64,000 bases of DNA from Salinibacter grassmerensis (GTDB lineage Bacteria > Bacteroidota > Rhodothermia > Rhodothermales > Salinibacteraceae). Positions within the stretch are counted from its first letter, which is position 1. Each line of letters opens with the position of its first letter. A program made the translations under genes and the position numbers. The notes beneath the pieces were generated by a model. It did not search any database. It worked only from the letters and a program-made list of their open reading frames with translations, and was not told where the DNA came from. The DNA lies in assembly GCF_947077765.1 (NCBI RefSeq), contig NZ_CAMTTF010000002.1:434001-498000 (forward strand), written 5' to 3'. Positions 28,572 to 38,404 of this stretch are shown piece by piece.

Positions 28572-29891
28572 TTAGAAGGCGGCGGTCCAGTCGCTGTGGG
28601 TGTCGATCTGGCTCCGCACGAGGTCGGGACGCTCCTGGCCGGGGGTGCCGTCGGTCTCGTACGCGTCGAGGACGGCATCGGGATCGATGGGGCCCGGGGC
28701 AGTATCCTCGGCCGCAGCCTGCTGGTAGGCGGACCGGAAGGGCACGCCCTCCGCGACCTGCGCCAGCGCCCGCTGGGTAGCGAGGAGGGCTGGGGTGCAC
28801 GCGGCCCGCGTCTGGTTGGGATTGAACGTGACGCCGCGAGCCACCTCGGTCAGCGCGGTGAGCACGTCGGAGGTCATCTCTACGCTGCGCATGGCCGCCG
28901 CTTTCGTGAGCTGGAGGTCGCGGTGGTACCCGCCGGGTAGGTTCGAGGGGCCGGTCGCGAGGTGTTGCATCTCGGCGGCGAGGCGGGGGTGATAGGCCCG
29001 CGCCAACTCCAGCACGTCCGGATTCTGCTTCTGCGGCATGATGCTGCTGCCGGTGCAGTGCTCCGGCGGCAGGTCCACGAAGTCGAACTCGGCGGTAGCG
29101 AAGAGGACGAGGTCGGACGCTAGCCGGTTGCAGGTGGCGCCGACCTGCGTGCAGGCGTGGCTAACGGCGAGTTCGTGCTTGCCCCGGCTCAGCTGCACGG
29201 CCGTGGCGTGGGTCTGCACGGTGCGGAAGCCGAGGCGGTCGGCCACGGCCGTGCGTGGCAGGTCGATTACGGGCACGCCGTAGCCCGCGGCGCTGCCGAG
29301 GGGGGAGACGTTGATCCGGCGGCGGGCGTGGCGGAGCGCATCGAGGTCGCCCGCCAGCGTCTCCGCGTACCCCAGTGCCCAGAGGGCGGCGGTAGACGGC
29401 ATGGCCCGCTGCAGGTGGGTGTAGCCCGGCATGAGAACGTCCGGATGCCGGTCTGCGAGCTCGCACAGCACGTCGGCGAGGGCGGCGGCCTGGCCCCCGA
29501 TTGTGGCGAGGGCGTCGCGGAGATAGAGCCGGAGTGCGGCGAGCACCTGGTCGTTGCGCGAGCGCCCCGTGTGCAGCTTCTCGCCGGCCGTCCCGGCGTG
29601 CTCGGTCACGAACCGCTCGATCACGGTGTGGCAGTCCTCGTCCTCGGGCGTGACGGTCACCTCTCCGTCGTCGAACGCGTCGAGGAGGGCGTCCAGCGCG
29701 CCGCCGATCCGCGTCCACTCCGTCTCCGAAAGCACGTCGATCTGGCGGAGGCCCCAGGCGTGGGCGCGGCTCGCCCGTACGTCATAGGGCAGCAGCAGGC
29801 GGTCCCATTCATAATCGTCTCCGACCGTAAACCGGTGGACCCAGTCCTCGGTGGGCGTCGTCGTGTCGTGGTCCCAGATCGGTGTGCTCAT
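28572..29891 (-). CDS. argH: Argininosuccinate lyase
   Basis: A 439-residue enzyme releasing arginine and fumarate from argininosuccinate, the last step of the pathway. The fumarase/aspartase-superfamily signature GSSIMPQKQNPDVLELARA contains the catalytic Ser loop. Other conserved blocks are HTGRSRNDQVLAALRLYLRD and the TxxHxxQRAMP-type element YTHLQRAMPSTAALW, with the catalytic His region. The protein is slightly shorter than E. coli ArgH (457) but complete. It is the last gene of the arginine operon, 114 bases after argE. There is no clear terminator before the convergent terC stop. Confidence 0.95.
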   Translation of the reverse strand: MSTPIWDHDTTTPTEDWVHRFTVGDDYEWDRLLLPYDVRASRAHAWGLRQIDVLSETEWTRIGGALDALLDAFDDGEVTVTPEDEDCHTVIERFVTEHAGTAGEKLHTGRSRNDQVLAALRLYLRDALATIGGQAAALADVLCELADRHPDVLMPGYTHLQRAMPSTAALWALGYAETLAGDLDALRHARRRINVSPLGSAAGYGVPVIDLPRTAVADRLGFRTVQTHATAVQLSRGKHELAVSHACTQVGATCNRLASDLVLFATAEFDFVDLPPEHCTGSSIMPQKQNPDVLELARAYHPRLAAEMQHLATGPSNLPGGYHRDLQLTKAAAMRSVEMTSDVLTALTEVARGVTFNPNQTRAACTPALLATQRALAQVAEGVPFRSAYQQAAAEDTAPGPIDPDAVLDAYETDGTPGQERPDLVRSQIDTHSDWTAAF

Positions 29892-30005
29892 GGCATGCGT
29901 CTGTCCGGAGAAAGGAAAGTGGAGAGAATGCGTGCGCAGAGGGAGGAGACCGGCGGAGGAACGCCACCAGTAGGGTGTGGCGCTGTCGATCTCGTCGGTG
30001 TGCTC

Positions 30006-31106
30006 TCACGGGTGATCACGGGTGGTCGAAAAGTAGGCCCGGATCAAATCCCGGTAGACGACGACGGCCCGTCTCACCTCGTCCACCTCGATGCGCTCCG
30101 TGGCGGTGTGCGAGCGGGTGCTCGGGCCCGGTCCCATCTTGACCGTGGGCACGTCGTGAAGGAAGACCCAATCCGACGAGGTAGGAGACCCGAAGGGCTG
30201 GGCGTTGGGCCGGGCAGACTGGGCGGCCTGGGCGATCCGCGCGTCTCTGGGCGTGGCGCAGGGCACGAGGCGGTCGCTGTAGACCTCCACCTCCGCGTCC
30301 ACCGCCTCGGACACCTGATCCGCAATCTCGTCGTGCGTGTAGGCGGGCGTGGTGCGGAGGTCGACGGTGAAGACGCAGTGCTCGGGCACCACGTTGTGTG
30401 CGTCGCCGCCCTCGATGGTGGTGACCGTCGCGGTTGGCGCACCGAGGTGCGGGGCCTCCCGGTTCAGGGGAAGGGCCTCGAGCTGCTGGATCGCCGCCAG
30501 GGCCGCCGGAATCGCGTTTTCGCCGAGATGCGACCGGCCGGCGTGCGCGGCCGTTCCTCGGGCGTGGATCTTGAGGATGAGCAGGCCCTTCTGCGCGACG
30601 CAGGGGCGAAGTGTGGTGGGTTCGCCTACGACGGCGGCGGAAAGGGACGGAAGTTCGGGACGGAGGTCCTGCAGCCCGTTTCTGACGCCGCCGGACTCCT
30701 CGTGCGTGGTGAGGCCGACGAGGAGCTGTCCATCGCTTGGGGCCCACCCCTCCGCCGCCAGGGAGAGCAGCGCCATCGTCATCGCGGCGCCGCTGGCCTT
30801 CGCGTCTACACTGCCCCGGCCGTAGAGGACGCCGTCGGTCTCGACCGGCTCGAACGGCTCGTACGGGTGGTCGCTCGACGGCGGCACGACGTCGAGGTGC
30901 GAGTTCAGCAGAAGCGTGTCCTCACCTGCGCCGACGCCGAAGGCGATGTTGTCGTCGTGCCGCAGCACGTCGACCCCGGCGCGCCGGACGTGGGCCTCCA
31001 CGAAGTCGGCAATTGCCGCCTCCTCTCCGCTGAGGGAGGGGAAGCGGATGAGCTCCTTTAGAAGGTCAACGGCGTCGGTGGTGCTCGAAGAAGAGGAGGA
31101 GTGCAT
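30006..31106 (-). CDS. argE: M20-family N-acyl-citrulline/ornithine deacylase
   Basis: A 366-residue di-zinc amidohydrolase of the M20 family. Metal ligands are visible: His and Asp in LLNSHLDVVPP, the bridging Asp in LYGRGSVDAKASGAAM, the catalytic Glu pair in THEESGGVRNG, Glu in VVGEPTTLRP, and the terminal His in TRSHTATERIEVDE. The dimerisation-domain His is in GTAAHAGRSHLGENAI. In a pathway with argF', deacylation normally follows carbamoylation, so the substrate is expected to be N-acyl-citrulline rather than N-acetylornithine. That is inferred from the operon. The protein begins with a run of six Ser. Confidence 0.88.
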   Translation of the reverse strand: MHSSSSSSTTDAVDLLKELIRFPSLSGEEAAIADFVEAHVRRAGVDVLRHDDNIAFGVGAGEDTLLLNSHLDVVPPSSDHPYEPFEPVETDGVLYGRGSVDAKASGAAMTMALLSLAAEGWAPSDGQLLVGLTTHEESGGVRNGLQDLRPELPSLSAAVVGEPTTLRPCVAQKGLLILKIHARGTAAHAGRSHLGENAIPAALAAIQQLEALPLNREAPHLGAPTATVTTIEGGDAHNVVPEHCVFTVDLRTTPAYTHDEIADQVSEAVDAEVEVYSDRLVPCATPRDARIAQAAQSARPNAQPFGSPTSSDWVFLHDVPTVKMGPGPSTRSHTATERIEVDEVRRAVVVYRDLIRAYFSTTRDHP

Positions 31107-31218
31107 TGTATCAACCGGTTGGGACGATGGCTCGCGTTACTGGTGTCCCCGGCCCTCTCGTGGTTTGCAGGGCGAGACGAAGCCGGGGCAACGTCCGCCA
31201 GGCCGAACGATCCGTGGG

Positions 31219-32022
31219 TCACGATCGGCGCACGATTTCTGTTGCTCGGGACCGGGACAGAAGGTCGTCCGGACCGCAGATGTGAACCTCGCCGACGGGG
31301 CCGTCGAGGGCGTCGAGTGCCGTTTCGACCTTCACGCGCATGCCCCCATCGATCCAGCCGTCCGCGATTCCTTGCCTGGCGGTGGCCGGGGTGCAGGCGT
31401 TAAGGCGGGACTCGGGATTCCCGGCGTCCCGGCGCACGGCTCCCGCCTCGGTGACGTAGAGCAACTGCTCGGCCGCCAGGGCCTCAGCCAGCGCACGGGC
31501 AACCGTGTCGGCGTTCACGTTGTAGACCTGCCCCCCGTCGTCGATGCCGAGGGGGGCCACGACGGGAACCAGTGACCGATCCAGAAGCCCGTTCAGGAGC
31601 GACGGGTCCACGTGCTCGATGTCGCCGACCCATCCAAAATCGACGGTCTTTCCATTGACGTCCCACGCCGGACGCTTCGAGACCTGGACCAGGGCGGCGT
31701 CGGCCCCGGAGATCCCCACCGCGGTGAGGTCGTGCTGCTGTGCTTCTGAGACGAGGGTCGTGTTGAGCGAGCCCCGCATGGCCCACTGCGCAATCTTAAG
31801 GTCGAGGTCGGTCGTGATGCGGCGGCCCTGGACCCGCTCCGGCGTGTGGCCGAGTCGATCCGCGAGGGCGGTCATCTGCGTGCCGCCGCCGTGAACGAGC
31901 ACCACCGGGGCGTCCTCGTGCAGCGCCTGCACGCCGGGCCACAGCCCTGTGGGTGCGCTCGCCTCATCGAGAAGCGATCCGCTAATCTTGATGACGGTCG
32001 GGGAGGGCTTTTGCGGAGGCAT
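31219..32022 (-). CDS. argB: N-acylglutamate kinase
   Basis: A 267-residue amino-acid-kinase-fold enzyme phosphorylating the gamma-carboxyl of N-acylglutamate. Motifs are TVIKISGSLLDE (Lys for phosphate binding), VVLVHGGGTQMTALADRLG, RVQGRRITTDLDLKIAQWAM (acyl-glutamate binding Arg) and YNVNADTVARALAEAL with the conserved N-D. The C-terminal WIDGGMRVKVETALDAL is the ATP/Lys element. It lacks the N-terminal helix of arginine-inhibited kinases (the domain starts at about residue 8), so feedback by arginine at this enzyme is unlikely. The ATG at 32022 is chosen; a longer frame reaches 32109 into the spacer. Confidence 0.93.
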   Translation of the reverse strand: MPPQKPSPTVIKISGSLLDEASAPTGLWPGVQALHEDAPVVLVHGGGTQMTALADRLGHTPERVQGRRITTDLDLKIAQWAMRGSLNTTLVSEAQQHDLTAVGISGADAALVQVSKRPAWDVNGKTVDFGWVGDIEHVDPSLLNGLLDRSLVPVVAPLGIDDGGQVYNVNADTVARALAEALAAEQLLYVTEAGAVRRDAGNPESRLNACTPATARQGIADGWIDGGMRVKVETALDALDGPVGEVHICGPDDLLSRSRATEIVRRS

Positions 32023-32135
32023 TGTCGCTGCGGTAGAGTCGCTTCGTTCGAAAACAGAGAGGAGGGCGTGGGGGAAGGCATTGCTGAGGGAGCCCCCAGT
32101 TGCCTCCACTCACTCCTCATTCTGCGGCCCCGTGA

Positions 32136-33197
32136 TCAGAGGCTCCAGACGTACTCAAGCAGTGCTTTCTGCGCGTGAAGGCGATACTCGGCCTGGTCGA
32201 GGTGGGCGGCACGCGGACCGTCGAGCACCGCGTCGTCCACCACCACGTTGCGGCGCACGGGCAGGCAGTGCATGAAGAGGCCCTCCCGGCTGTGCGCCAT
32301 CAGGTCCGCGGTGATGCGCCAGTCGGAGCGTGCCGCCCGGGCCTCGGACTCGGCCTCCGGGTTCTCGTACATGAGCGGGCCGCCCCACGACTTGGCGTAG
32401 ACCACGTCGGCGTTCTCCGCCGCGGCCGCCTGGTCGCTTGTCGCCGAGACCGACCCGCCCTGCCCCTTGGCCAGCGCCTCCGCCTCGGCCATCACTTTCG
32501 GGGCCAGGGCGTGCGTGTCGGGGCGGGCCACGGTCACGTCCATGCCACAACGGGCCGCCGTGCGGAGTGCTGTGTTCGGCACGGCCATTGGCAGGGGCTT
32601 CGGGTGGGGGGCCCACGAGAGGACGAAGGTTTTGTCCGCGAGGTCCTCCCCGAACCGCTCGGTGAGCAGGGCCGCGTCGGAGAGGCCCTGGCACGGGTGC
32701 GCCCCGGCCGACTCCAGGTTGATGACTGGCACCGTCGCGTGCTCGGCGATGGTGCGGATGAGCGTGTCCTGCTCGTCCGCGGCGTAGTCGGTGCCGGAGG
32801 CGAAGACGCGGACGCCCAGGGCATCATGGTAGCGCGACAGCACGCCGATCGCGTCCCGGACGTGCTCGGCCGGGCCCCCATCCATCACGGCCCCCTCCGT
32901 CCACTCCAGATCCCAGCTCCCATTGCCCGGCACCAGGGTGGTATGGTGGGCCCCGAGGTGGGCGGCGGCCCCTTCCATCGAGGTGCGCGTGCGGAGCGAG
33001 GGGTTCATGAAGATAAGCCCGAGCGACGAGCCCGAAGCGGCCCCGGCGTGTAGGGTGTCGTCGTGTCGATGCTGCACGGCAGCGTGACGGAGGGCGTCCC
33101 AGGTCGCGTCCGAAAACGCGTCGACGCGGAGGACGTGCTGCAGATCGTCGTCCGTGTCGGAGGACGACGAGGTCGGCGTGGGTGGGGAGGTTGGCAT
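32136..33197 (-). CDS. argF': N-acyl-ornithine carbamoyltransferase (AOTCase/SOTCase type)
   Basis: A 353-residue transcarbamylase. The carbamoyl-phosphate loop is FMNPSLRTRTSMEGAA; the AOTCase/SOTCase-specific blocks are GNGSWDLEWTEGAVMDG, WAPHPKPLPMAVPNTAL and FMHCLPVRRN, which replace the SMG loop of ordinary ornithine transcarbamylase. Two residues conflict on acyl specificity: in GGPAEHVRDA an Ala occupies the position of AOTCase Glu92 / SOTCase Pro90 by hand alignment, whereas the C-terminal RLHAQKALLEY keeps the Lys302 motif of AOTCase. Acetyl versus succinyl is left open. A Ser/Thr/Pro/Asp tail of about 17 residues is at the N terminus. Confidence 0.88.
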   Translation of the reverse strand: MPTSPPTPTSSSSDTDDDLQHVLRVDAFSDATWDALRHAAVQHRHDDTLHAGAASGSSLGLIFMNPSLRTRTSMEGAAAHLGAHHTTLVPGNGSWDLEWTEGAVMDGGPAEHVRDAIGVLSRYHDALGVRVFASGTDYAADEQDTLIRTIAEHATVPVINLESAGAHPCQGLSDAALLTERFGEDLADKTFVLSWAPHPKPLPMAVPNTALRTAARCGMDVTVARPDTHALAPKVMAEAEALAKGQGGSVSATSDQAAAAENADVVYAKSWGGPLMYENPEAESEARAARSDWRITADLMAHSREGLFMHCLPVRRNVVVDDAVLDGPRAAHLDQAEYRLHAQKALLEYVWSL

Positions 33198-33261
33198 TGG
33201 GGAAAAGCTTGTTGGCAGGTAGACGGTAGGAAAATCGGCGGCTTGCTGCGCCTCGGGGACG

Positions 33262-34449
33262 TCAGTGCGCTCCGGTAGTGACCGTGGTGGCGTCGAGGGC
33301 CGCGTGGAGCGCGTCCGCAAAGGCGGCCACGTCGTCGTCCGAGACGATGAGCGGGGGCATCAGGCGCATCACGTGCGGGTCCGACGAGCCACCGACGAGC
33401 ACACCCTGATCGCGAAGCGCATCGATCACGGGCTCGACCGGCCGATCCAGATGGAGCCCCATCAGGCAACCGCGCCCGCGCACCTCCTCGACGACCGGCC
33501 CCACAGCCCCAGCCACCTGCTCGTGGATGTCGGTAGCCCGGGCCATCAGGTCGTCCTCGACCAGCGTCGTGAGGGTGGCCTCCACAGCCGCCATCGCGAG
33601 CATCCCCCCGCCGAACGTGGAGCCCTGGTCGCCGGTCTCGACGGTCGCGGCCACGGCGTCGTCCACGAGCACGGCGCTCACGGGCATTCCCGCGCCGAGG
33701 CTCTTGGCGAGCGCGACGAGGTCGGGCGTCGCCCCCAGTTGCTCACTCATGGAAAACGTGCCGGTCCGTCCCACGCCCGTCTGCACCTCGTCGAAAATCA
33801 GAAGCGTACCGTACTTGTCGCAGAGCGTGCGGAGGCCCTGCACGTAATCGGCGGGCATCGTCCGCATGCCGGCGATGCTCTGGATTGGCTCTAGGAGCAC
33901 GGCCGCGATGTCCTCGGTGGCCAGCACTGCCTCCGCGGCGTCGAGGTCTCCCACCGGGACCCAGGTCGTCTCCGGGAGCACGTCCGCGTACGGCGCACGG
34001 TCCTTCTCGTCGTGCGTGGTGGCGAGGCTGCCGAGGGTACGTCCGTGCCAGCCCTGCTCCATCGCTACGATGCCGGACCGCCCCGTGTATTTCCGGGCCA
34101 GCTTCAGGGCCGTCTCGTTGGCCTCCGAGCCGGAGTTGGCGAAGAAGACGTTGCCGAGGCCGCTGGGAGCGAGTCCCGCCAGTCGCTGGGCGGCCCGGGC
34201 GCGGACCGGGCTGTGTGCGACGTTCGAGTAGAACATGAGCGTGTCCGCCTGGGCCTGCAGGGCCTCCACGACGGTTGGGGGGCAGTGGCCGAGCAGCGAC
34301 ACGCAGTGCCCCCCGTAAAAGTCGAGATACCGGGTGCCCTCGTCGTCCCATACGTAGGGTCCCTCCCCGCGCACGAGCGCCATGGGCATCTTGTCGTACG
34401 TCGGGATTTCGAGTTCCTGCTCCAGGTTGATCGTGTCTGTTGGGGGCAT
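33262..34449 (-). CDS. argD: N-acyl-ornithine aminotransferase
   Basis: A 395-residue class III PLP aminotransferase forming N-acyl-ornithine. The PLP-binding Lys is in LVALAKSLGAGMPVSAVLV, the Asp in LLIFDEVQTGVGRTGTF, and the phosphate-binding Gly/Ser in FANSGSEANETALKLARKYT. The N-terminal block ALVRGEGPYVWDDEGTRYLDFYGG is typical of ArgD. A much longer frame to 34872 runs through the argC end and is ignored; the ATG at 34449 starts the first family residues. Argininosuccinate-operon position and the argF' neighbour fit arginine rather than lysine use. Spacing to argC is 92 bases. Confidence 0.93.
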   Translation of the reverse strand: MPPTDTINLEQELEIPTYDKMPMALVRGEGPYVWDDEGTRYLDFYGGHCVSLLGHCPPTVVEALQAQADTLMFYSNVAHSPVRARAAQRLAGLAPSGLGNVFFANSGSEANETALKLARKYTGRSGIVAMEQGWHGRTLGSLATTHDEKDRAPYADVLPETTWVPVGDLDAAEAVLATEDIAAVLLEPIQSIAGMRTMPADYVQGLRTLCDKYGTLLIFDEVQTGVGRTGTFSMSEQLGATPDLVALAKSLGAGMPVSAVLVDDAVAATVETGDQGSTFGGGMLAMAAVEATLTTLVEDDLMARATDIHEQVAGAVGPVVEEVRGRGCLMGLHLDRPVEPVIDALRDQGVLVGGSSDPHVMRLMPPLIVSDDDVAAFADALHAALDATTVTTGAH

Positions 34450-34541
34450 GGGGGCTGTTGGTATGTAGGTGTGAGGGAGCGTAGGAAAGCGGAAGCACGA
34501 GCGAGCGTGGAGAGGCACGTCTCCACCCGCTGCGTACGCAT

Positions 34542-35573
34542 TCAAAGCGCGGGAGCGGAGCGCGGGGTAGGCACGAGGCCGGCGGTTTCGGGGAGGTCGA
34601 GCGTACGATTCAAGTTCTGCAGCGCCTGACTTGCAGCCCCCTTCAGGAGGTTGTCGAGGGCGAAGCCGACGATGAGGGTGGAGCCGTCTGTCTTCCAGCC
34701 GAGGTCGCAGAACGGGGTGCCCACCGTGGGCTGAAGCGCGGGCAATCCGTCCGGCGTGTGGCGGACGCAGGAGGCCTCGTCGTAGGCGGCGTCGTACTCC
34801 GCGGCTACGGCCCCTGGCTCGACGGGGGCGTCCCACTCGATATGGGCCGTGCCCCAGATTCCCCGTGTCCAAGGGCCGGAAGCGGGCACGAAGTCGAGCG
34901 ACACGTGGTCGCCGAGCGTCTGCCGGATTTCGGGGCCGTGCTGGTGGCTCATCACCTTGTAGGGGCGCACGTTGCCGTCGCGGTCAGGAAAGTGAGTGGC
35001 CGAAGAGGGCCTGGCGCCCGAGCCGGACGCGCCCGTGAGGGCAGTCACGTGGGCGGTGAACGGAATTTCTTTCTGAGAAAGGGGGGCAAGCGCCAGCGTG
35101 ATGCCGGTGGCGTAGCAGCCGGGATTGGCCACGAGCGACGCTCCCGTGATGTCGTCGCTCCACTCCGGCAGCCCGTATACGGCATCGGCCAGCAGGCCCG
35201 GGGCCGGATGCGTCGCGTCGAACCACTCGGGGTAGACCGCCGGGTTGCGGAAGCGAAAGTCGGCGCTCAGGTCCACGATGGGGCCGCCGAATCCGTGCTC
35301 CAACAGCGGGGGAATGACCTCCATACTCCGGCCGTGCTCCCCGGCCACGAGAAGTGCGTCGAGCGGCGAGGGGTCCAGGTCCTCCGGTGCGACGAAGACC
35401 TGATCGACCTGTTCACGCAGGGATGGATGCGCCGCGCCGACGGCCTGGCCGGCAAACGTCCGGCTGGTCACCGTGTGGAGTGCGGCGGCAGGGTGGCCGG
35501 CCAGCAGGCGGATGAGTTCCCCCCCCACGTAGCCGGCGCCGTGGAGGAGGCCGATGTGGGCAGTGTCGTTCAT
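34542..35573 (-). CDS. argC: N-acyl-gamma-glutamyl-phosphate reductase
   Basis: A 343-residue NADPH-dependent reductase making N-acylglutamate semialdehyde. The dinucleotide loop is IGLLHGAGYVGGELIRLLAGHP and the catalytic Cys lies in LVANPGCYATGITLALAPL; the second active-site His is in VMSHQHGPEIRQTL. PIVDLSADFRFRNP is also conserved. Length equals family norms. Start choice: ATG at 35573, which directly precedes the Rossmann strand; an ATG ten codons upstream also exists. The gene is 93 bases after the P-loop gene and 92 bases before argD. Confidence 0.94.
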   Translation of the reverse strand: MNDTAHIGLLHGAGYVGGELIRLLAGHPAAALHTVTSRTFAGQAVGAAHPSLREQVDQVFVAPEDLDPSPLDALLVAGEHGRSMEVIPPLLEHGFGGPIVDLSADFRFRNPAVYPEWFDATHPAPGLLADAVYGLPEWSDDITGASLVANPGCYATGITLALAPLSQKEIPFTAHVTALTGASGSGARPSSATHFPDRDGNVRPYKVMSHQHGPEIRQTLGDHVSLDFVPASGPWTRGIWGTAHIEWDAPVEPGAVAAEYDAAYDEASCVRHTPDGLPALQPTVGTPFCDLGWKTDGSTLIVGFALDNLLKGAASQALQNLNRTLDLPETAGLVPTPRSAPAL

Positions 35574-35666
35574 GGGTGCGGGGACGGGGCGAGCAGATTT
35601 CATGATGACTGAGATACGTGTTGGAAAGTGCCGCGTGGGCACAGGAGGCACCGGGCGGCTTGCACA

Positions 35667-36809
35667 TCACGCCTCATGGTTCTTCACCGCCATGGCGAGG
35701 TTGCTGTCGGGTGCCGGCATGGAAGCAGCGGGCGTCCCCGGGCCGTCCGGCGCGACGGAGGCTGGAAGGGCTCGCACGACTGCATTCACGAGTCCGGTGC
35801 TTTGCTGCAGGGCGTTGAGGGCCGTCACGCCGAGCCGCTGCGTGATGTAGCGGCGCCCCACGTCGTTGTCGGTCACCGGTCCAGTCATTGCGGTGATGTC
35901 GGCGTGGTACCGCTCGCGGAAGGTGCGCTCGGCGGCCCACGCCCCGGCCAGGTCGGTGGCCGCCACCACGTGCGTTTCGATAAAGGACTGCAGTTCCATG
36001 TCTGTCAGGAGGTCGTCGACGCCGTAGTAGCCGACGAATCCGTCGCCCATTTCCGCCACAATCACGTCCAGGTCCTTCGTCTCATTGAGGTGGTGGATCA
36101 CGCCCTTTGCGATGGGGGTGATCGCGTCTTCCACGGTGCAGGCAATGCCCGCGTCGGTGAAAGTGGACACGGCCGCGGCCCCGTGCTCCCGCATCCGGCG
36201 CACATCGCGCATGAGCGACGCCCCGGTGAGCTTGGCGGCGCCCACCCGGAGTCCGCGTTCCGAGAGCCCCTCGACAATCCGGCAGGCCGCCTCGGTCTTG
36301 CCCGTCTCCATGGCCGTGCCGCTGACCGTGACGAGGGGGACCGATCTCTCCAGGCGGTGCCGCATCTCCAGGGCGTCCTCCTGAATCCGGGCGTGTGTCC
36401 ACTGGTCGTTCCGCCTCACCATCGCGGCCCCGAGCACCTCCACCGGCAGGGCCGGCCCGAGCTCCGGGTGCGCCGCGGTGCACTCGCCGATGAGCCCGCC
36501 CAGGTTGAGCACGTTCAGCGTATCGCCCGGGGCAATGTGGCGGGGGACCCGTCCGCTGTATCCCTTGAGTGCCTGCCGTCCGCCAAGGGTGCCCACGAGC
36601 ACGTCGCCCTCTCGGACGTGCCGGAAGCTCCCATCCCTGCACTCGACTTCGTCGTACTGGTCTTTTTCGGCGAGCGCGCGGCCCACAATCACGTAGCCGT
36701 GCTGGGCCACGACGTACGGGGAGAGCGTGATGGGCGACTCGATGTCACAGTGGGCGGTGCTGGAGGCAATTTTGTCGACGGGTCCGGTCCGGAAGGCGTC
36801 GTCGGTCAT
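35667..36809 (-). CDS. P-loop protein (DUF1611/BioD-CobB-like) inside the arginine operon
   Basis: A 380-residue protein of uncertain family. Residues about 25-145 form a beta-rich N-terminal domain (HGYVIVGRALAEKDQYDEVE, GDTLNVLNLGGLIGE). From about 170 a P-loop is clear in VTVSGTAMETGKTEAACRIV (G-x4-G-K-T), followed by GLRVGAAKLTGASLMRDV and a later acidic element LDVIVAEMGDGFVGYYGVDD. This order resembles SIMIBI-class enzymes such as BioD/CobB and DUF1611 proteins; one DUF1611 protein (DgcN) has been described as an N-acetyltransferase of D-glutamate. It lies between argG and argC, where an N-acylglutamate synthase would be expected, and no ArgA or ArgJ is in the operon. A role in glutamate acylation is inference only. 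The ATG at 36809 is chosen. Confidence 0.6.
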   Translation of the reverse strand: MTDDAFRTGPVDKIASSTAHCDIESPITLSPYVVAQHGYVIVGRALAEKDQYDEVECRDGSFRHVREGDVLVGTLGGRQALKGYSGRVPRHIAPGDTLNVLNLGGLIGECTAAHPELGPALPVEVLGAAMVRRNDQWTHARIQEDALEMRHRLERSVPLVTVSGTAMETGKTEAACRIVEGLSERGLRVGAAKLTGASLMRDVRRMREHGAAAVSTFTDAGIACTVEDAITPIAKGVIHHLNETKDLDVIVAEMGDGFVGYYGVDDLLTDMELQSFIETHVVAATDLAGAWAAERTFRERYHADITAMTGPVTDNDVGRRYITQRLGVTALNALQQSTGLVNAVVRALPASVAPDGPGTPAASMPAPDSNLAMAVKNHEA

Positions 36810-36856: not shown

Positions 36857-38098
36857 CTATCCCGTGGTCGATTCGGCGAGCGGTGCTTCGGAGTGCGAAG
36901 AATCCGTGCCGGCGCGGGCCTTTTTGGCGAGAAGGGACGGAACGGCGGCGAGCGTGGTGTATCCCTCCGCGTCCCGTCCGTCCCACAGCGCATTTTCTTC
37001 GCCGTAGGTGGCCGTGCCGGCGTCGAACAACGAGTGTGGACTGTCGACGCCCTGCACCGTGGCCCGGCCCTTGAAGAGCTTTACCGTCACGGTGCCGGAG
37101 ACGACGTCCTGACTGTGGTCGAGAAACGCCTCCACGTCCCGCATCACCGGATCGAAATACTGTCCCTCGTGGAGCAGGCGGCCGTACACGTCGCCGAGGG
37201 TGTGCTTCTGGACCTGCTGCTGCTCCGAGAGCACCACCTTCTCGAGCTCACGATGGGCCGCAATGAGGATCTGAGCCGCCGGCGCTTCGAATCCAACCCG
37301 TCCCTTGATGCCGAGGATGGTATCCCCCACGTGGACGTCGCGCCCGACCCCGTGGGCCCCGCCGATCTCGTTGAGCGTCTCGACGATCTCGACCCCCGAG
37401 CGAGACGTCCCGTCGACGGCGGCGGGAAGCCCATTCTCGAACGTGACCGTGAGGGTATGCGGCGTGTCCGGTGCCTGTGCAGGGGACGTCGTGTCCGGAT
37501 AAGCGTCCTCCGGCAGCGGGGTCGTCGCCGTGAGGGTCTCCTTTCCGCCGATCGTGGTCCCCCAGAGCCCCCGGTTGATGGAGTAGTCGGTCGTGTCGGC
37601 CGGAACCGAAAAGCCGCGCTCCTCGAGATAGGCCGTCGACTCGTCGCGGGTAAGCCCACGGCTGCGGATGGGTGCGATCACGTCCGGGTCGTCGCCCACC
37701 AGCTGCAGGGCCACGTCGAACCGAACCTGATCGTTGCCGGCGCCGGTGGAGCCGTGGGCGACAGTCGAAGCGCCAACCGCCTGCGCGACCTCCGCCACGG
37801 CCCGTGCCTGCACGATGCGCTCCGGCCCCACGCACAGCGGATAGACGCCGCCCTTCAGGACGTTGCCCTTGATCAAGTAGCTTAGGTGGTCGTCGTAGAG
37901 CGGAGTCCGCCCGTCGACGAGGTGATGATGGTCCGCCCCGAGGTGCTGGGATCGGGCCTCGATTGCCGAACGGTCGTCGTCGGTGAGGCCGCCGGTGTCG
38001 ACCGTCACGGTGTGGACCGGGGCGTCATGGGTTTCTTGCAGGTACGGAACGCAGAAGGAGGTATCGAGCCCTCCACTGAAGGCGAGAACGATGGGCAT
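36857..38098 (-). CDS. argG: Argininosuccinate synthase
   Basis: A 413-residue ATP-dependent ligase joining citrulline and aspartate, first gene of the operon. The N-type ATP pyrophosphatase loop is at the very start (MPIVLAFSGGLDTSFCVPYL). Downstream are GNVLKGGVYPLCVGPERIVQ, the AHGSTGAGNDQVRFDVALQ element and YSINRGLWGTTIGGKETLT. The ATG at 38098 begins immediately before the P-loop; a longer frame to 38197 runs back through the terminator hairpin. The 26 bases between the hairpin arm and the start codon leave little room for another control site. Expression is proposed to be set by the upstream leader and attenuator. Confidence 0.95.
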   Translation of the reverse strand: MPIVLAFSGGLDTSFCVPYLQETHDAPVHTVTVDTGGLTDDDRSAIEARSQHLGADHHHLVDGRTPLYDDHLSYLIKGNVLKGGVYPLCVGPERIVQARAVAEVAQAVGASTVAHGSTGAGNDQVRFDVALQLVGDDPDVIAPIRSRGLTRDESTAYLEERGFSVPADTTDYSINRGLWGTTIGGKETLTATTPLPEDAYPDTTSPAQAPDTPHTLTVTFENGLPAAVDGTSRSGVEIVETLNEIGGAHGVGRDVHVGDTILGIKGRVGFEAPAAQILIAAHRELEKVVLSEQQQVQKHTLGDVYGRLLHEGQYFDPVMRDVEAFLDHSQDVVSGTVTVKLFKGRATVQGVDSPHSLFDAGTATYGEENALWDGRDAEGYTTLAAVPSLLAKKARAGTDSSHSEAPLAESTTG

Positions 38099-38123
38099 AG
38101 GGACAAAATTCGGTGTGAAACAT

Positions 38124-38158
38124 AAAAAAGGCGCTGGCTCGTGAGAACCAGCGCCTTT
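38124..38158 (-). terminator. Attenuator terminator in the arginine-operon leader
   Basis: A perfect 11-bp inverted repeat (arms 38127-38137 and 38148-38158, loop 10 bases). On the minus strand it is followed by a run of six T (the last three paired positions plus three more) and then ATG at 38121-38123, which is not in frame with argG. The hairpin sits 26 bases before the argG start and 42 bases after the stop codon of the Arg-rich leader ORF, where a transcription attenuator is expected. Confidence 0.8.
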
Positions 38159-38170
38159 GCAGGGAAGGCG
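38152..38170 (-). promoter_or_regulatory. Possible antiterminator hairpin competing with the arg terminator
   Basis: On the minus strand CGCCTT (38170-38165) can pair with AAGGCG (38157-38152) across a 7-base loop. The second arm is part of the 5' arm of the terminator, so both hairpins cannot form together. Six pairs are weaker than the terminator, and only the sequence supports it; RNA folding and probing would be needed. Confidence 0.45.
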
Positions 38171-38200
38171 GCGATGCCGCGTCAAATGGAGGATCAAGCC

Positions 38201-38314
38201 TTACTCATCTGACGACCGGACGCCGGTTCGAGCCGTGGAGGTGGGGTGCAGTCGTCGCACACGTCGGGCTCGGCGTCGGGTCGTTGTCGCAATGAGAGTC
38301 GGTTGGCGTGTCAT
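38201..38314 (-). CDS. Arginine-rich leader peptide of the arg operon
   Basis: A 37-codon ORF, ATG at 38314, stop TAA at 38201, reading MTRQPTLIATTT then RRRARRVRR, then LHPTSTARTGVRSSDE. Ten of 37 residues are Arg and seven fall in the nine codons 13-21. Those codons are CGA CGC CGA GCC CGA CGT GTG CGA CGA, so CGA, uncommon in GC-rich genomes, dominates. GGAAG lies six bases before the ATG as a possible ribosome site. The stop codon is 42 bases from the terminator stem. Stalling at the Arg run during arginine shortage would favour antitermination; this is inference from layout, as in the leader peptides of his, trp and leu operons. The frame is also open to an ATG at 38437. Confidence 0.7.
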   Translation of the reverse strand: MTRQPTLIATTTRRRARRVRRLHPTSTARTGVRSSDE

Positions 38315-38377
38315 AGTAGCTTCCACGATAGCGGGCGCCGCTGGGACTATCAAGCCGGCCGAGGCCCGATTCGATGA

Positions 38378-38404
38378 CGAAGTTATGAAGGGAAGCGCTT
38401 TCAA
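38378..38404 (-). promoter_or_regulatory. Weak candidate promoter of the arginine operon
   Basis: On the minus strand TTG (38404-38402) is followed after 16 bases by TAACTTCG (38385-38378), seven of eight matches to TAnnTTTG. The spacing is shorter than the usual 19-21, which lowers confidence. If used, transcription would begin near 38370, leaving about 55 bases before the leader ATG. Confidence 0.3.

Follow-up and report, generated by a model that had tools for sequence, protein, structure and literature searches.

The argG gene of the window (the whole 64-kb stretch of DNA analyzed) is preceded by a leader that, judging from its sequence and from those of its relatives, is very probably an arginine-sensing transcription attenuator of the ribosome-mediated his/trp type. 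In the his/trp-type attenuators of proteobacteria, codons for the end product are clustered in a leader ORF, which is combined with mutually exclusive hairpins and with a terminator located before the first structural gene. The leader ORF of the window, whose coordinates are given in Table 1 together with those of the other features, encodes MTRQPTLIATTTRRRARRVRRLHPTSTARTGVRSSDE followed by a stop codon. This short ORF is rich in codons for the product of the operon, as seven of codons 13 to 21 specify Arg, five of them being CGA, and the run is conserved. The stop codon is located 42 nt upstream of the terminator hairpin, and argG starts at position 38098. The ORF, its Arg run, the stop codon, the terminator and the argG start were all found on the minus strand at the places where the first-pass annotation had put them, and its reading of the leader as an arginine-operon attenuator is well supported by the comparison across the class.

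Table 1. Features of the putative attenuator and of the presumed arg operon, with their positions in the window.
Feature	Position	Strand	Basis or description
Promoter-like element TTGATA, 17 nt, TATCGT	38325..38353	-	sigma-70-type match
Leader peptide ORF	38201..38314	-	37 codons + stop, putatively near-leaderless
Segment A: predicted to pair with region of segment B in ribosome-free fold, overlaps Arg codons	38267..38282	-	minimum-energy and centroid fold
Arg codon run RRRARRVRR (codons 13-21), proposed sensor	38252..38278	-	sequence, conserved, CGA-biased
Segment B: antiterminator strand GAACCGGCGTC, within ORF, downstream of Arg run	38219..38229	-	duplex and comparison
Segment C: terminator 5' arm GGCGCTGGTTC, common to antiterminator and terminator	38145..38155	-	duplex and comparison
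Intrinsic terminator: 14-bp stem, TCAC loop, six T	38124..38158	-	predicted, conserved
argG, argininosuccinate synthase, first gene of presumed operon	36860..38098	-	Pfam and NCBIfam
Further presumed arg operon genes	28572..36809	-	Pfam and NCBIfam

According to the proposed mechanism, the transcription start would coincide with the leader ATG or be located just upstream of it. With an ample supply of charged arginyl-tRNA, the ribosome would pass the Arg codons and cover or pass segment B (or B would pair with A); with B unavailable, the terminator would form and end transcription about 25 nt upstream of argG. Under a shortage of charged arginyl-tRNA, the ribosome would stall on the Arg run, over segment A, and the free segment B would pair with C, leaving no terminator and allowing the arg operon to be transcribed. 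We infer here the use of the promoter, the translation of the ORF, the stalling on the Arg codons, and termination with its release in the cell.

Conservation of the leader in the class

The evidence consists of the parts of the leader, their order, spacing and conservation and the tracking of segments B and C, all read from the compared sequences, and of the competition between the hairpins in folding models. Within the window, both strands were scanned in overlapping 420-nt tiles. At least five Arg in 12 codons with a strong terminator at most 80 nt downstream were found in one of 606 tiles, namely at the leader locus, and three of 606 tiles were found with at least four Arg.

An argG match was present in 81 of 100 relatives, from which 78 upstream regions were taken and parsed, and in 197 of 244 genomes of the class, from which 42 further loci were used and 39 parsed (for three f16 loci no start was found). 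The remaining argG matches of the class, including many distant argG copies of f16 and f17, lie outside the parsed set; genus and family labels (f1, f15 etc.) are those printed by the analysis tool. A system was counted when an ORF with at least four Arg in 12 codons was followed by a strong terminator within 80 nt. With this filter, whose first and second versions use different loop sizes, terminator scores and ORF distances and were both set after the first upstream regions had been viewed, an Arg-rich ORF followed by a terminator was found in 80 of the 117 parsed argG upstream regions of the class, representing 38 genera and 16 families. These systems belong to the order of the window and to four families of the class outside it (f18-f21). 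The five dinucleotide-shuffled sets passed the filter in 1, 0, 2, 1 and 0 of 117 cases, and at a threshold of at least five Arg in 12 codons there were 75 real upstream regions versus none in each shuffled set. The first-pass annotation had let its reading stand or fall with conservation in relatives, and such conservation is present: many families of the order, and others of the class beyond it, share the Arg run, the terminator and an antiterminator.

Several loci are borderline. Six (L030, L040, L043, L044, L180 and L181) are positive by eye and were counted as negative, two counted as positive are doubtful (L032 and L172), and L038 of f15, in which a 16-codon ORF with six Arg is located far from a terminator-like hairpin, was counted as negative. 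L178 (genome G206) has retained the terminator and a B-like sequence and has lost the Arg run, so its upstream region may represent a decaying or retargeted attenuator. The Arg run is present in L035 with no recognisable terminator, and in L174 the ORF ends early and the B sequence is retained.

A named collection contains at least 80 argG loci; of the 80 listed, 77 were parsed, and four of them passed the loose filter. Two of these, L081 and L102, bear the names Rhodothermales and Balneolales, respectively, and the latter (record SKNT01000200.1) has the same layout. The other two, L108 and L130, were read as false, their ORFs resembling a coding sequence at the same place in related loci such as L105 and L141. 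Since at least 8 of the 80 listed loci are Rhodothermales or Balneolales by name, fewer than 77 lie outside the class; among the parsed named loci listed, no convincing leader was found in other lineages. None was seen in 13 further loci from the phylum, for which the screen was limited to Arg ORFs and T runs. In 20 genomes, namely that of the window and 19 lacking an argG match, a blastn search with the leader, which is insensitive beyond the genus, gave no evidence of a copy in front of other genes; among the matches listed, those outside the window's own locus were short, with a best E value of about 0.001.

Competing hairpins and the position of the ribosome

A predicted intrinsic terminator stands between the leader ORF and the first structural gene. 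The first-pass annotation had described an 11-bp stem with a six-T run. The T run stands, and the stem is longer, as the hairpin at 38158-38127 has three A-U pairs in addition to the 11, making 14 in all, and leads into the six T. Similarly, its antiterminator on the 5' arm of the terminator was recovered, with 11 contiguous pairs in place of six: GAACCGGCGTC pairs with GGCGCTGGTTC with two G-U pairs and a predicted energy of -20.4 kcal/mol, which was equalled by 5 of 200 dinucleotide shuffles of the leader. The fold of the RNA is more stable than those of 200 shuffled versions (z -4.64). The antiterminator is mutually exclusive with the terminator, and it is weak in several families, e.g. f5, f10 and f13.

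In a first pass over single B:C duplexes, 26 of 58 were matched by at most 10 of 200 shuffles, whereas 8 of the 58 did not surpass the mean of their shuffles; the pairing is weak in four of the eight leaders of the window's genus (L003, L004, L005 and L008, with 36-68 of 200 shuffles). We then considered the own-arm test, in which the pairing of a leader with its own C arm is set against that with the arms of other genomes, the average strength of leader and arm being removed. In five draws of one genome per genus (n = 38), the observed own-arm preference was reached 1, 0, 0, 0 and 0 times in 5000 permutations. With one genome per family (n = 16), the corresponding counts were 283, 28, 9, 30 and 17 of 5000, one draw of five missing the 5% level, so that the signal is present but weaker than at the genus level. 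An earlier run restricted to the order had given 85 of 20000 for 26 genera and 129 of 20000 for 12 families; its 20 further family draws ranged from 4 to 205 of 2000, two of them being above 5%.

The hairpin could be a constitutive terminator or a general premature-termination device, the Arg richness being a by-product of a structured RNA rich in GC and in CGN. When C arms are exchanged between families, they do still pair substantially, which indicates that part of the pairing is compositional. Nevertheless, we regard this explanation as highly improbable: it leaves the own-arm preference unexplained, the dinucleotide shuffles described above preserve dinucleotide composition and yet yield only 0-2 of 117 systems, and no other tile of the window matches at five or more Arg.

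The attenuator reading was also compared with alignments of 14 of the 16 systems of f1, the family of the window (without L032 and L077), and of 17 of the 18 systems of f18-f20 in other orders (without L172). The share of cells with standard B:C pairs was 86.9% in the window's family, versus 27.1-54.2% in slid controls, and 87.3% in the other orders, versus 39.7-58.8%, a comparison biased in favour of the aligned structures because these were named from one member. The terminator pairs filled 100% and 94.1% of the cells. The shuffle controls for the B:C alignments were mixed. For the window's family and the other orders, respectively, the paired cells were reached by 21 and 0 of 500 shuffles and the covariation score by 4 and 5 of 500, while the pairs changed on both sides were reached by 128 and 248 of 500 and the further pair types by 472 and 201 of 500. 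Some compensatory changes, which the first-pass annotation had named as support for its reading, were found; in L012 and L013, which belong to one genus, B, C and D all carry a change at one position, such that both hairpins are preserved.

The effect of the ribosome was modelled by folding the RNA as it would be just before the 3' arm of the terminator is made, with the ribosome footprint removed, and by counting any upstream partner of C, not B alone. Over the 80 systems, C was paired upstream to 76% with the A site on the Arg run and to 41% with the ribosome at the stop codon, and the value for the Arg stall exceeded that for the stop codon in 76 of the 80 systems. In the model with no ribosome 58% of C was kept paired upstream on average, so basal termination is not clearly predicted; in the ribosome-free fold of the window itself, the protector pairing A:B is predicted. 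When the C arm was taken from another family, the corresponding values were 58% (Arg stall), 39% (stop codon) and 52% (no ribosome). In the window, 11 nt of C were paired upstream with the ribosome at codons 13-25 and 4 nt at the stop codon, with a return to 11 nt at codons 29, 30 and 35. In this model the regulatory codons are placed so that a ribosome stalled on them would free the antiterminator, and the model supports the proposed direction of control.

Codon choice, promoter-like element and ArgR

The Arg codons of the leaders differ from those of the gene they precede. In the 28 genomes with a full argG, CGA makes up 44% of the leader Arg codons (100/229) versus 6% of those in argG (39/673), and CGA and CGT together make up 69% versus 16%. 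The excess of CGA is seen in seven of eight families, the exception being f9, which is represented by one genome with no CGA in six codons. In the window's genus, CGA accounts for 42 of 69 leader Arg codons versus 38 of 498 in window genes, i.e. in twelve minus-strand window ORFs taken as genes. In the theory of attenuator codons, those whose tRNA is sensitive to starvation are favoured, and CGA and CGT are assigned to one arginine isoacceptor. The bias seen in the leader sequences fits both this theory and this assignment, and base-pairing constraints on the Arg run could contribute to it. Such a strong synonymous codon bias offers a direct test of isoacceptor-specific sensing.

The codon bias also bears on the possibility that the Arg-rich nascent peptide itself, rather than codon decoding, stalls the ribosome, the signal being free arginine or another ligand. 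Peptide-driven stalling has precedents in the fungal arginine attenuator peptide and in bacterial nascent-chain sensors, and a basic peptide is conserved across the class. Outside the Arg run, however, the peptide diverges strongly between families, and the position of the run in the ORF shifts. Moreover, a bias among synonymous codons in seven of eight families points to decoding, and in the model B is usually located downstream of the run at a distance that would suit a ribosome halted there. Stalling by the peptide is very improbable in our view.

The promoter-like element TTGATA-17-TATCGT is the sole sigma-70-type match in the 5 kb scanned, for which 0.3 were expected, and its -10 box ends 10 nt 5' of the leader ATG. 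A transcription start downstream of 38201 would have spoken against the first-pass annotation; in the sequence, the promoter-like element is located upstream of the ORF. In 47 of 76 systems, a similar element was found within the 90 nt that precede the leader, versus 166 of 1520 mononucleotide shuffles. Such an element, of some score, is carried by 24 of the 36 genera listed, and in 19 of those 24 the distance from the end of the -10 box to the leader ATG is 6-11 nt, which predicts a transcription start at or beside the start codon. Further upstream, at 38391-38402 of the window, there is a GAAAGCGCTTCC-like palindrome, which recurs upstream of argG in L003, L004, L006, L007, L024 and L030. 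It is possibly a candidate regulator site; one-mismatch matches to it are not over-represented within the window.

ArgR and AhrC, which control arg genes in other bacteria, are protein repressors of arginine biosynthesis, and arginine operons are usually presented as repressor-controlled. The operon could likewise be under a protein regulator such as ArgR, a T-box or a riboswitch, with the leader being incidental. Arginine T-boxes control arg genes elsewhere according to the available text of PMC1262725, and the palindrome upstream of the promoter-like element would be in line with a protein regulator. Against this, a profile search of the window genome (G000) gave no match to either ArgR domain (PF02863 or PF01316), and no Rfam leader, riboswitch or T-box family reached the gathering score in the window. 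We consider it extremely improbable that such control replaces the attenuator; a further regulator may act beside it.

The positive controls of the profile search gave PF02863 matches in 8 and PF01316 matches in 9 of 14 control genomes. The ArgR C-terminal domain was found in one of the 244 genomes of the class (G060), and the N-terminal domain in 2 of 99 relatives, G060 and G037; the five equal-scoring copies in G037 are taken as a mobile element. In G060, ArgR is located directly before argG, which is 50% identical to that of the window and has no leader. The leader is also absent in G066, G054 and G238, and argG of G066 appears to be preceded by an unrelated coding sequence. The families f15 (16 parsed) and f16 (9 parsed) are without the leader system and without ArgR. 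Six of seven tested genomes lacking an argG match gave no argH over the cut-off, with weaker matches of the wider lyase family remaining, and they are probably arginine auxotrophs since both genes are missing. These probable auxotrophs are G001, G012, G014, G015, G035 and G056, with a completeness of 92-99%, and two of them belong to the window's genus. The seventh, G078, has no argG match and has kept argH. In G040 and G087 of f15, the argH model matched with E values of about 1e-186 to 1e-192, versus about 1e-91 to 1e-100 in the ten remaining genomes whose argH exceeded the cut-off; this gap suggests a replacement of argH in the leader-less family.

We lean somewhat towards the view that the ancestor of the class had an ArgR-free control of arginine synthesis by a near-leaderless leader-peptide attenuator tuned to one tRNA isoacceptor (that of CGA/CGT, scarce in argG and dominant in the leader), which would have been lost with auxotrophy, operon break-up or an ArgR-linked gain of argG. 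If true, this would be the first leader-peptide attenuator of arginine biosynthesis. Several amino acids are known to be sensed by ribosome-mediated attenuation. A widespread arginine attenuator in bacteria without ArgR would show that one control logic can stand in for another; it would add an amino acid and a lineage to ribosome-mediated attenuation and would provide a natural series of losses and swaps.

Known systems and the presumed arg operon

The leader shares with the proteobacterial his/trp attenuators the codon run in the leader ORF, the exclusive hairpins and the layout of the terminator. It differs from them in its proposed sensing of arginine, in its lineage, in the location of the antiterminator strand inside the leader ORF of the window, in the closeness of the ORF start to the presumed transcription start, and in the synonymous bias to a codon that is rare in genes. 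The ArgR/AhrC regulons likewise control arginine biosynthesis and do so through a protein repressor, whereas here the ArgR C-terminal domain was not found in 243 of 244 genomes of the class. The available text of PMC1262725 names attenuators for histidine, threonine and phenylalanine, reports no arginine attenuator in Actinobacteria and cites T-boxes for arginine elsewhere.

Several other described elements, as presented in the available parts of the respective papers, resemble the leader in some respects. The cysS uORFC-8-2 motif of Rhodobacterales (PMC8632094) is likewise a ribosome-mediated attenuator predicted by comparison, with conserved codons for the sensed amino acid in an uORF, but these are cysteine codons before a tRNA synthetase gene of alphaproteobacteria. 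The carA motif of betaproteobacteria (PMC8632094) is likewise a candidate structured RNA before a gene of arginine/pyrimidine synthesis, but it is a hairpin motif for which that text reports no Arg-rich leader peptide. The leader peptide rbfL of Staphylococcus aureus (PMC13009471) also senses arginine restriction via rare Arg codons; it differs in having two Arg codons, in acting by translational control that blocks a ribosome binding site, and in its target, a biofilm regulator. The Salmonella speF leader (PMC6386406) is an mRNA element whose conformation responds to arginine levels, but it precedes a polyamine gene. Finally, trpL of Sinorhizobium meliloti (PMC10117765) is an attenuator in which translation of the leader ORF takes place on a leaderless RNA, but it concerns tryptophan and an alphaproteobacterium.

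The available text of PMC9723704 reports strong clues that amino acid operons of Flavobacterium, left unnamed there, are preceded by leader-peptide attenuators, and attenuation within the phylum is therefore not itself new. The first-pass annotation knew of no arginine leader-peptide attenuator in this lineage, and none was found described in the open-access PMC literature, as far as its texts were available, either for the lineage or for any arginine biosynthetic operon. The mechanism is of a known kind; its arginine specificity, its occurrence in this lineage and the accompanying lack of ArgR seem to be new with respect to the open-access papers searched.

Downstream of argG, the minus strand encodes, in this order, a P-loop protein, argC, argD, an N-acetylornithine carbamoyltransferase, argB, an argE-like M20 peptidase and argH. 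As these arg genes follow argG on the same strand, the leader precedes an apparent operon for most of arginine synthesis. The P-loop protein (35670-36809, minus strand), located between argG and argC, is of unknown function and shows a weak DUF1611 and MobB likeness under the cut-offs. Its predicted structure has a mean pLDDT of 78.8, with general P-loop NTPases as the best PDB matches, and a protein with the same motif occurs near argG in 19 of 30 loci (L002-L031). Of the ten ORFs scanned in the window, none was recognised as argA, and as a guess the P-loop protein may supply or regulate the first step of the pathway. The carbamoyltransferase (32136-33320, minus strand) scored 496 bits with the N-acetylornithine carbamoyltransferase model, well above the cut-off of 288, so the pathway probably proceeds via acetylcitrulline.
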